A DNA stretch of 64,000 nucleotides from Akkermansiaceae bacterium (GTDB taxonomy: Bacteria > Verrucomicrobiota > Verrucomicrobiia > Verrucomicrobiales > Akkermansiaceae). Every line of letters starts with the position of its first letter. Within the stretch, counting starts at the first letter, position 1. The stretch is taken from NCBI GenBank assembly GCA_013041925.1, contig JABDRB010000003.1:186001-250000 (forward strand), in the 5' to 3' direction. The notes under the pieces are model-generated. The model was given only the letters and a program-made list of their open reading frames with translations. It did no database searches and had not been told where the DNA came from. This document shows, piece after piece, positions 10,740 to 15,126 of the stretch. A program made the translations under genes and the position numbers.

Positions 10740-13460
10740 TTAGATCACTTCACTGCAGCGCTGACAAAGATCCGTCACGAGCGGCTCGTATCGGCGACAT
10801 CGCGGACACATGCCGTAATCAGAGGCTTTGGCTGAAGCGCTCACGTCATCACCCACCACCACACGCAGCTCAGATAGAATAAAGAACTCGGTCACAAATT
10901 CACGATCGTCGAGCAGTGCTAGGCAAGGATGATCCGCCGGTAAGGTCACCGTAACGTCAGCCTCGTTGTTTTTATTGAACGCCTTCGCCTGCACCTCTTT
11001 TTCAATCGCCGTCTGGATGATCGCACGAAGCTCAAGCAAGCTATTCACCTGACCGATCGCTTCGCCAGATGCAAACTCAGGATCCACATCGGGGAAGTCC
11101 TGCTCGTGCACACTCCCCGAGTTACCTGCGTGCTCCCACGCCTCATCGGCGGTGAACACAAGGATGGGGGCAATCAGGCGGCAAAAGGCATCAAAAACCC
11201 TGTGCATCACCGTCTGAGCAGCGAGACGGCGCGTCGAATCCTTCGCATCGCAATACATGCGATCCTTGGTGATATCCACATAAAGCGCACTCAGCTCATG
11301 CGCACAGAACTGGTTGATCTGGTTAAATACCTTGCGGAACTGGTAGGCCTCATACGCACTGCGACATTCCGTGATCACTTCATTAAGCCGCTCAAGCACC
11401 CAGCGGTCGAGCAGCGTCATCTCCGCCTTGGCAACCGATTGGGTAGCGACATCAAACCCACTGACGTTTCCTAATAAAATACGCAGTGTGTTGCGAAGTC
11501 GACGATATGGATCCGTGACCTGCTTAAAGAGTTTATCAGAAAAAGGAACCTCGGTCTGCCAGTCCACCGACGCCGCCCATAGGCGCACAATATCCGAGCC
11601 AAACTGGTCGTAGTAATGCTTGGCATTAATCGGCTTCTTACCCGATTTCGAGATTTTTTTACCCGAGGTATCGACCACAAACCCGTGGGTCATCACTGCC
11701 TTGTAGGGCGCGGTGCCACGGGCTGCAATACTAAGCATCAGCGAACTCTGGAACCAACCACGATGCTGGTCGGTGGCTTCCAAATAAAGATCAGCTGGCG
11801 CAGAAAGCTCGGGGTGACGATCCATCACGGCGACATGACTCGACCCAGAATCGATCCAGACATCCAAGGTGTCCCGGCATTTCTTACTCCCCTCAGGAAG
11901 ACCAAGGCGCGCTGCCAGCTCCGCGTCGTCGAGCTCAAACCAGATATTGGTGCCTTCTTTTTCAACCAGGTCAGCAATCTTACCAATCAGCTCGGTGCAG
12001 ATAATCGCTTCTCCCTCGGGGGAGAAAAACACAGGAAGAGGAACCCCCCACGTCCGCTGCCGTGAGATACACCAGTCAGGGCGTGTTTCCACGGTGCCGT
12101 AGATCCGATTGCGCCCCCACTTCGGCAACCATTCCACCTTGTCGATTTCCTCCATGGCTTTCCCGCGGATGTCTTTCAGTGAGATGAAAAATTGCTCCAC
12201 GGCGCGGAAAATAATGGGGGTCTTCGAGCGCCAACAGTGAGGATACTGGTGTGAGTAGAGCTCTTGCCCAAGAAGATTTCCGCTCTCATCAAGGATCTCG
12301 GTGATCCGTTTATTTGTTTTGAAAACGTGCTGCCCCACCAATTCGTCCATCCCACACTCATCGGTGAACTTCCCATCGGCGTCTACCGGAGAAAGTAATC
12401 CGAGGTCGTTTTGCATGCCCGCGACATAGTCATCAGCACCGTGACCAGGTGCGATGTGCACCGCTCCGGTTCCCGTTTCCGCGGTCACGAAGTTGGCGAG
12501 AATGATCTTGGACGTGCGTGGTAAAAATGGATGACTGGCGTGTTTCCCCTCCAATTCTTTACCTCGGAAACGACTCTCCTGCTCGACGAGGGAAAAACCT
12601 GTTTTAGCGGCAAAATCTTCCAGCAAATCAAGCGCGATGACAAGTTTGACTCGGCGTCCATCTTCGTGTGTAAATTCCCCACAGACATAGTCGAACTGCT
12701 CATGCACGGCGATACCGAGGTTGGCAGGCAACGTCCATGGAGTGGTCGTCCAGATCACCATGGAGGCATCTGCCAAATCGCCGTCGGCATCGGCCAAAGG
12801 GAAACTTACGTAAGCGGCCATGCTCTTTTTATCGAGATACTCGACCTCGGCTTCGGCGAGTGCCGTGCCAGCACCGTAACTCCAAAGCACAGGCTTGCGG
12901 CTCTGATAAACGGCATCCATTTCCGCCAGCTTGCCAAAGGTGCGGATAATGTCCGCCTCATAACTCGGATCAAGAGTCAGGTATGGGTTTTTCCAATCCC
13001 CAAACACACCCAGACGCCGAAAACTCTCGCGCTGGATATCGACAAAGCCCATGGCAAAGTCTTGGCAACGTCGGCGCACCTCGGCGGGCTCTTCATCACG
13101 CGCGTCCTGCATCACCTTAAACTCAATCGGCAGACCGTGGCAGTCCCAACCTGGGATATACGGCGTCTCGAAGCCAGCCATCGTCTTAGATTTCAACACG
13201 AGATCCTTAAGCACCTTGTTCAGAGCGGTCCCCATATGCACGTCGCCATTGGCAAAGGGTGGCCCGTCATGCAGAATAAATCGTGGGGCTCCTTCTTTTT
13301 TACGGCGTTGCTGAATGCGCTGATACAGATCCTGATCGTCCCAACGCTGCAAACGGAGGGGTTCATTTTTCACCAAGTCGCCACGCATCGGAAAACTCGT
13401 ATCCGGCAGGCTCAGGGTGTCTTTGTAATTAGTCGGCTTGTTTGATTCGTCTGCACTCAT
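10740..13460 (-). CDS. ileS: Isoleucyl-tRNA synthetase
   Basis: A 906-residue class Ia synthetase that charges tRNA-Ile with isoleucine. Seen are the FILHDGPPFANGDVHMGTAL block with the HIGH-equivalent motif (about residue 70), the editing (CP1) domain with IVWTTTPWTLPANLGIA, the WCISRQRTWGVPLP segment, and the KMSKS loop GKKISKSGKK. The C-terminus has a zinc-finger (CPRCRRYEPLVTDLCQRC), as in bacterial IleRS. Length fits the bacterial type. It is the first gene of an ileS-lspA operon; the thioredoxin-like gene ends 145 bases upstream and might be read through. Confidence 0.97.
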   Translation of the reverse strand: MSADESNKPTNYKDTLSLPDTSFPMRGDLVKNEPLRLQRWDDQDLYQRIQQRRKKEGAPRFILHDGPPFANGDVHMGTALNKVLKDLVLKSKTMAGFETPYIPGWDCHGLPIEFKVMQDARDEEPAEVRRRCQDFAMGFVDIQRESFRRLGVFGDWKNPYLTLDPSYEADIIRTFGKLAEMDAVYQSRKPVLWSYGAGTALAEAEVEYLDKKSMAAYVSFPLADADGDLADASMVIWTTTPWTLPANLGIAVHEQFDYVCGEFTHEDGRRVKLVIALDLLEDFAAKTGFSLVEQESRFRGKELEGKHASHPFLPRTSKIILANFVTAETGTGAVHIAPGHGADDYVAGMQNDLGLLSPVDADGKFTDECGMDELVGQHVFKTNKRITEILDESGNLLGQELYSHQYPHCWRSKTPIIFRAVEQFFISLKDIRGKAMEEIDKVEWLPKWGRNRIYGTVETRPDWCISRQRTWGVPLPVFFSPEGEAIICTELIGKIADLVEKEGTNIWFELDDAELAARLGLPEGSKKCRDTLDVWIDSGSSHVAVMDRHPELSAPADLYLEATDQHRGWFQSSLMLSIAARGTAPYKAVMTHGFVVDTSGKKISKSGKKPINAKHYYDQFGSDIVRLWAASVDWQTEVPFSDKLFKQVTDPYRRLRNTLRILLGNVSGFDVATQSVAKAEMTLLDRWVLERLNEVITECRSAYEAYQFRKVFNQINQFCAHELSALYVDITKDRMYCDAKDSTRRLAAQTVMHRVFDAFCRLIAPILVFTADEAWEHAGNSGSVHEQDFPDVDPEFASGEAIGQVNSLLELRAIIQTAIEKEVQAKAFNKNNEADVTVTLPADHPCLALLDDREFVTEFFILSELRVVVGDDVSASAKASDYGMCPRCRRYEPLVTDLCQRCSEVI

Positions 13461-13605: not shown

Positions 13606-14154
13606 TTACTCCCGTGTCACTCCAGGTGGCAGCCACTCGTTGGGCATCGGCTTGATCGCTGGCTCAGCACCTGCAGGCTGGTCGCCATCGACAACCACGG
13701 CATACTGGTCAATCCTCCGCTGGATCTCCTCCTCTGGGTAGGCACCCGTAAATTGGTGCACCAATGACCCACCTCGATAAAATAAAAATGCCGGCACACC
13801 CCGGATCTGGTGGTTCGCCGCCCATGCTCGGTTGGCATTGGCATCCACCTTCACAATGCGCACCTTTTCACCATTGGCACTTGCAAGTCGCTCCAGCACG
13901 GGAACGAGCGTTTTACAGGGGGGTCACGTATCGGTATAAAATTCCACCACCACCATGCGTTTCTCCGTCGAAATGATCTCTTTTCCCTCCTCCTCATCCA
14001 CCTTCACCACATCAACCTCCTGGGATCCAGATGATTCCCCATCACCCAGCAACCCCTTGGCCTTGTCCGTCAAATGGGCCACCTTGTCACAGGATACCAA
14101 TGACCCCAACATCGCCAAACTCAACGCGGCTGATAAATACTGAATCCATTTCAT
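13606..14154 (-). CDS. Candidate selenoprotein: thioredoxin-fold lipoprotein with UxxC site
   Basis: Two open segments in the same frame are separated by one TGA (13924-13926). Read through, they give a 182-residue protein. Residues 1-23 are a lipoprotein signal with lipobox LVSC, so it would be membrane-anchored outside the cytoplasm. A charged linker leads to VVVEFYTDT, then TGA, then PPCKTLVPVLERL and a normal thioredoxin body with GVPAFLFYRGG (cis-Pro loop). Aligned with thioredoxin (FWATWCGPCK), the TGA falls exactly on the first active-site cysteine, giving U77-P-P-C80. A hairpin meeting bacterial SECIS spacing lies just downstream. Alternatives: a TGC/TGT to TGA nonsense mutation, or a sequencing error; a frameshift is excluded since both halves share one frame. 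No Sec machinery is visible in this window. Confidence 0.7.
13889..13910 (-). promoter_or_regulatory. Putative bacterial SECIS hairpin
   Basis: In the mRNA sense, 13 bases after the TGA, CGCUC (13910-13906) pairs with GAGCG (13893-13889) around a 12-base loop that starts with GUU. From memory, bacterial SECIS elements need a short stem, a 3-14 base apical loop with a G in its first positions, and a loop 16-37 bases after the UGA; here the loop starts 19 bases after it. The stem is only 5 bp, so this is suggestive rather than proof. Confidence 0.45.
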
Positions 14155-14277: not shown

Positions 14278-15126
14278 GTGAACGTCGGAATCATCGCAAA
14301 CCCCAACAAAAAAGGAGCAGCAGAAACCATTCGCAAGCTCTGCCAAGCCCTCGAAAAACAGAGCATCGCTCCTGTCTTGGAAACCCACACCGCAGCCCTT
14401 ATCGGCGCCGATAAGGGCGAGGACCCCGCAACCTTTGCCGATCGCTGCGACGCTGTCGCCGTCCTCGGAGGCGATGGAACCATGCTCGATGCCTCCAATA
14501 AAATTGGGCCCGCAGACATCCCCGTCGCGGGGATCAACACGGGTAATCTCGGTTTCCTCACCACATGCACCAACGATGAGCTTGAGATCTTCGCCAAAGC
14601 CCTCGCCAACAAAAACTACACCCTCATCAAGCGCATGCAGCTGCGCGCCTTCGTCATTTCAGCCGACGGAACGGAACAAAGTTTCCGCGCACTGAATGAG
14701 ATCACGCTCGCCCGTGGTCAAACGGGCCGACTGGTCTCTCTCGATGCCTGGGTCGACGGCGAATTGCTGAACCACTACCGCGCGGATGGCTTGATTGTTG
14801 CGACCACAACGGGGTCGACCGCTTACTCGCTCTCCGCAGGTGGACCATTGATCGCCCCCAAAGCCGATGTCTTTGTGATCACCCCCATTTGCCCGCACAG
14901 CCTGAGTAACCGCTCCCTCGTGGTCTCAGACAGCTCCACCGTGGAACTGGCTCCAGCAAAAGATGCTGAGTGCCCGATGCTGTTTACCGTCGATGGCCGA
15001 GAAACGCTGGAGATCCAGCATGGCGACCGAGTTAAGGTCGAACAAGCGGGGCACGCACTGCCCTTGCTTCGCCTCGAAGGCCGGACATTTTATGCCACCC
15101 TGCGCCAAAAACTCGGCTGGGGGTAG
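14278..15126 (+). CDS. nadK: NAD kinase
   Basis: A 282-residue enzyme that phosphorylates NAD to NADP with ATP or polyphosphate. The diagnostic motifs are present: VLGGDGTML with the catalytic aspartate (about residue 65), GINTGNLGFL, the NEITLARG block, and YRADGLIVATTTGSTAYSLS, followed by APICPHS-like TPICPHSLS. Length matches the bacterial family. The start codon is GTG at 14278, next to no clear Shine-Dalgarno site; the motif spacing from the N-terminus (VGIIANPNK) fits the family well. The gene is divergent from the selenoprotein candidate (123-base gap) and ends 8 bases before the convergent TPR gene. Confidence 0.95.
   Translation: MNVGIIANPNKKGAAETIRKLCQALEKQSIAPVLETHTAALIGADKGEDPATFADRCDAVAVLGGDGTMLDASNKIGPADIPVAGINTGNLGFLTTCTNDELEIFAKALANKNYTLIKRMQLRAFVISADGTEQSFRALNEITLARGQTGRLVSLDAWVDGELLNHYRADGLIVATTTGSTAYSLSAGGPLIAPKADVFVITPICPHSLSNRSLVVSDSSTVELAPAKDAECPMLFTVDGRETLEIQHGDRVKVEQAGHALPLLRLEGRTFYATLRQKLGWG

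Follow-up and report, generated by a model that had tools for sequence, protein, structure and literature searches.

Does an in-frame TGA codon at the active site of a thioredoxin gene stand for selenocysteine (Sec), or does it mark a gene that has been broken? The question is raised by a locus in the window (the whole stretch of 64,000 nucleotides from an Akkermansiaceae genome that was analysed here). We have approached it through the gene itself, the Sec machinery of the genome, the homologues, the RNA just downstream of the TGA and the history of the locus.

A lipoprotein thioredoxin gene with one in-frame TGA

The sequence-only reading had placed the TGA exactly at the first catalytic cysteine of a lipoprotein with a thioredoxin fold, and this is what we find, on the minus strand (the strand was absent from that reading). 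The flanks also read as described there (EFYTDT and PPCKTLVP, here within VEFYTDT-U-PPC-KTLVP), and the Pfam thioredoxin domain PF00085 runs straight across the TGA, the only one in frame, with an E-value of 4.3e-23. The features of the locus are collected in Table 1. Further genes read through a TGA were sought over the whole window, but no convincing case emerged; each candidate was a normal stop or upstream sequence that had been read through, and these were rejected.

Table 1. Features of the selenothioredoxin locus (positions within the window)
Feature	Position	Strand	Basis
Lipid-anchored selenoprotein thioredoxin gene, entire	13606..14154	-	182 codons, ATG 14154, TAA 13608-13606
Lipobox LVS-C (Cys22, Asp at +2), predicted signal peptidase II site	14089..14100	-	sequence; S21 and C22 invariant in family alignment
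Thioredoxin domain, residues 49-149	13708..14010	-	PF00085, AlphaFold2, Foldseek
In-frame TGA as probable selenocysteine U77, first catalytic position	13924..13926	-	TGA in 12 genomes, Cys in farther homologues
Resolving cysteine C80 of the U-x-x-C motif	13915..13917	-	invariant in family alignment
SECIS-like hairpin, 7-bp stem, loop CGUGCU at 13900-13895	13888..13907	-	fold, pairing, synonymous freeze
cis-Pro position of the thioredoxin fold, P121	13792..13794	-	invariant in family alignment
Conserved C-terminal tail IKPMPNEWLPPGVTRE, beyond the thioredoxin domain	13609..13656	-	also on unrelated lipoproteins of two relatives
Flanking gene ileS (isoleucyl-tRNA synthetase), conserved neighbour	10740..13460	-	name inferred from sequence
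Flanking gene nadK (NAD kinase), conserved divergent neighbour	14278..15126	+	name inferred from sequence

The selenocysteine machinery of the genome

The genome that holds the window (98% complete) contains selA (E 2.5e-151), selB (E 1.1e-96), selD and a tRNA-Sec, the last above the Rfam cut-off and confirmed by ARAGORN with the anticodon TCA. The selD gene (C21:73839-74765, L018) is itself interrupted in frame by a TGA, again at the active site (SCAG-U-ASK), and Sec thus seems to be used by two or more genes of this genome. The presence of the complete set counts against a chance nonsense mutation and against a UGA decoded in some other way.

Conservation of the TGA codon and of the sequence after it

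A TGA is found at exactly this codon in 12 genomes, and in all of them it is followed by xPC. Eleven, with the host among them, belong to one genus, and the twelfth (G026) comes from a different genus of this family. Since the TGA recurs in 11 other assemblies, a sequencing error is very unlikely. Farther members of the family have cysteine instead, for example within CGPC (G019, G025 and G174) or CEPC (G022), and one genus-mate has serine. We found selB in every TGA genome except G003, an assembly that is 84% complete and whose near-identical kin have the gene; no selB was found in G019, G025 and G031, all three with Cys at the TGA codon (in G031 as CGVS). At this locus an in-frame UGA takes the place of a redox residue for which homologues use Cys. 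Two further TGA matches, in G037 and G039, were not counted, being ordinary WCGPC thioredoxins with the TGA at or beyond the normal C-terminus.

The part of the gene after the TGA is maintained under purifying selection. The dN/dS ratio for this part was 0.07 and 0.13 in comparisons of the host genome (G000) with G010 and G012, respectively, and 0.25 for the near-identical pair G009/G003, while saturated pairs gave no value. One stop codon does break the frame, as it would in a pseudogene that a chance mutation had silenced and in which decay is under way. However, the TGA recurs in 12 genomes, one of them of another genus, the sequence downstream is conserved with low dN/dS and the host has the full Sec machinery, which leaves this explanation with a very small probability. 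The earlier statements that the TGA is not a chance event and that the gene has not decayed hold. The selenocysteine reading built on them is supported, as all the computational checks suggested with it turned out in its favour, and comparison of the homologues led us to reject pseudogene, sequencing error and general readthrough alike.

Readthrough of another kind, by a near-cognate tRNA such as that for Trp or by general suppression, would put a residue other than Sec at this position. Some readthrough of UGA does occur in bacteria, but here the TGA falls exactly on the catalytic Cys, the homologues carry Cys and not Trp there, selA, selB, selC and selD are all present and the hairpin described below is conserved beyond coding need, so that we give this possibility practically no weight. 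Another alternative is that the UGA normally terminates translation, giving a short lipoprotein, with the Sec form as a minor, selenium-dependent product; bacterial Sec insertion is in competition with termination. Such a regulatory stop is at odds with the conserved C-terminal tail and with the strong selection that acts downstream of the TGA, and the truncated form would be left without the thioredoxin core; we regard this alternative as highly improbable.

A hairpin under selection downstream of the TGA

Just after the TGA the sequence TCGTTCC-CGTGCT-GGAGCGA can fold into a hairpin (-9.2 kcal/mol) with a stem of 7 bp and a loop of 6 nt in which positions 2-3 are G-U; 23 nt lie between the TGA and the loop. 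A hairpin with the loop CGUGYU lies at the same position in all TGA copies, a few of them with a single mismatch in the stem. The published model of the bacterial SECIS (bSECIS) asks for an apical loop of 3-9 nt, a stem of 4-16 bp, a G in the first two loop positions, a distance of 16-37 nt from the UGA and a minimum free energy of at most -7.5 kcal/mol (PMC13188914). The window hairpin satisfies this model, which is, however, unspecific when taken by itself. Of 600 TGAs sampled at random from the window, 150 (25%) pass it as well, and G007, a true TGA member, does not, so that we have rejected a bare match to the model as proof. Nor is the fold of the single sequence extreme (z of -1.96 for 43 nt and -0.30 for 56 nt), and a search against Rfam gave no match at the locus.

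The comparative evidence is stronger than the match to the model. Codons +7 to +11 after the TGA are nearly fixed synonymously (GCT, CCC, GTG, YTG, GAG), with a synonymous diversity of 0.16 against 0.60 elsewhere; only 2 of 20,000 random codon sets were equally low, and 93.5% of the stem cells are paired against 26-51% in slid controls, counts to which related sequences contribute and which should not be taken as probabilities. Compensatory changes at two stem pairs add covariation to this synonymous freeze, and both point to selection on the hairpin beyond that on the protein.

Protein architecture and predicted function

An AlphaFold2 model built from the family alignment has a pLDDT of about 95 over residues 51-150 and the order of helices and strands of thioredoxin, and the best matches found by Foldseek among solved structures are thioredoxins. 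The protein combines this fold with a [CU]xxC motif and the cis-Pro and thus belongs to the thioredoxin domain family. It scores 79.1 bits against the equivalog model of the housekeeping thioredoxin (TIGR01068), below the cut-off of 96.8, and we have therefore treated it as a thioredoxin-domain protein and not as the housekeeping enzyme; no NCBIfam thioredoxin model reaches its own cut-off. At the other end, the Ser-Cys of the lipobox (LVS-C, residues 19-22) is invariant in 14 homologues, and a signal peptide with a lipobox ending in Cys places the protein among the predicted bacterial lipoproteins.

The TGA, the homology, the machinery, the hairpin and the selection have all been established computationally, and we infer that the gene almost certainly encodes a functional selenoprotein with Sec inserted at U77. 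The ribosome would meet the UGA at codon 77, and the hairpin just downstream would recruit SelB with Sec-tRNA(Sec), leading to insertion of the residue. After export the protein would receive its lipid at Cys22 and stay anchored at a membrane, facing the extracytoplasmic space. An Asp after the lipid-modified Cys would favour the inner membrane by the rule known from E. coli, a rule that may not hold here, and the inner membrane is the most likely anchoring site. There the U-P-P-C thioredoxin domain would engage in thiol/selenol-disulfide exchange, in which it would probably reduce partner proteins and be recharged by the DsbD-type transporter encoded in the genome (C9:81488-82138). The most likely function is thus that of a membrane-tethered extracytoplasmic thiol-disulfide oxidoreductase with the selenol as the attacking residue.

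In the family member of G254 (L073) both active-site cysteines are replaced by Ser (ADWSGPSK), which suggests a non-redox role. The host genome has a thioredoxin-domain paralogue (C29:216127-216447, L043) in which Ser stands in the place of Sec and the second Cys alone is kept; it also ends in RPMPQNWLPQGVTRK.

Distribution and history of the ileS-nadK locus

Among 388 sampled genomes of the phylum, no member of the subfamily was found at E <= 1e-36 outside the family-level group to which the window belongs. The rest of the order gave weaker matches, the strongest being in G047 and G098 and the others near the level of thioredoxins in general, and a search of contigs with the protein returned only one distant archaeal thioredoxin.

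Within the genus, the gene lies between ileS and nadK in every locus long enough to include both flanks. Three genomes, all of which retain selB, have something other than a TGA gene at this place. G013 (L025) has TGT (Cys, in CGPC) at the codon, followed at the same position by CGCTCC-CACGCT-GGAGCG, a stem of 6 bp in which the G-U of the loop has become A-C; this stem is likely to be the relic of a SECIS left after a Sec-to-Cys change. In G004 (L031) the gene adjoining ileS has TCT (Ser) at the codon and keeps the second Cys alone, and the hairpin loop is absent; a Ser in a positional orthologue means that the Sec residue is not needed in every species. The site in G011 is occupied by a different lipoprotein (L084:763-1404), which begins in a similar way (SCDKISE) and has the tail of the selenothioredoxin (KPMPKDWLPPGVTR) but neither a thioredoxin domain nor any Pfam match; the start of nadK is readable on its other side.

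A lipoprotein resembling that of G011, also without a thioredoxin domain, is found in G012 (C1:450697-450725, L099). Both have the lipobox start of the selenothioredoxin and its C-terminal tail PM..DWLPPGV, and the tail may serve all of them in binding or sorting.

The family protein tree is poorly resolved inside the TGA clade, and we have used ileS for the order of species. In the ileS tree G013, G004 and G011 are nested among the TGA genomes; the main splits of the genus are strongly supported, although G013 and G004 are placed only weakly within their subgroups. The simplest reading is that Sec would be ancestral in the genus and was followed by a change to Cys, a change to Ser and a replacement of the gene. 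Independent gains of Sec would be a less simple reading, and reversion is favoured by the relic stem that G013 retains.

Change from Sec to Cys is rare in bacteria and documented mainly for FdhA and SelD (2026 review, PMC13188914). Because of this rarity the locus offers a natural test of what makes a species retain or give up selenium, as closely related genomes, with selB kept, carry Sec, Cys, Ser or a different gene at one place. We lean slightly towards a wider picture, of a lipid-anchored selenothioredoxin subfamily restricted to one family, with Sec, a Sec-to-Cys change with a relic SECIS stem, a Sec-to-Ser change and replacement by an unrelated lipoprotein keeping start and tail, all at one ileS-nadK site within one genus. 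On this picture the locus would add to FdhA and SelD another of the rare Sec-to-Cys changes in bacteria, and the tail would act as a shared interaction or sorting element.

Comparison with known selenoproteins

Standard annotation would end the gene at the TGA and miss the selenothioredoxin in every related genome. Among open-licence papers we found none on a lipoprotein subfamily of selenothioredoxins. Selenoprotein thioredoxins with UxxC (PF00085) have been listed for Treponema denticola, Geobacter and Anaeromyxobacter (PMC1794560) and appear also in the inventory of PMC13188914. The protein described here has in common with them the thioredoxin fold, Sec as the first residue of the CxxC motif, a bacterial SECIS just after the UGA and Cys homologues. 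It differs in the lipoprotein signal and the conserved C-terminal tail that flank the domain, in that the subfamily was found in one family-level group, and in scoring below the NCBIfam thioredoxin cut-offs.

Other selenoproteins are similar in part. The thiol:disulfide interchange, TlpA-, DsbG- and DsbA-like proteins (PMC13188914) share the UxxC in a thioredoxin fold and are partly extracytoplasmic, whereas here the domain is the classic thioredoxin PF00085, with Thioredoxin_2 and DSBA matching much more weakly. SaoT, a thioredoxin-like selenoprotein, and the HUIPC-motif selenoprotein (NF040730 and NF047660) are likewise thioredoxin-like with UxxC; neither model is among the NCBIfam matches at E <= 0.001. 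The Sec-containing SelD is a TGA gene of the same genome, also with the TGA at the active site, but it is another protein and belongs to the Sec pathway itself. Thioredoxins with UxxC are an established selenoprotein family, to which this locus adds a lipid-anchored, predicted extracytoplasmic form, and what would be new here is the lipid-anchored subfamily with its conserved tail.
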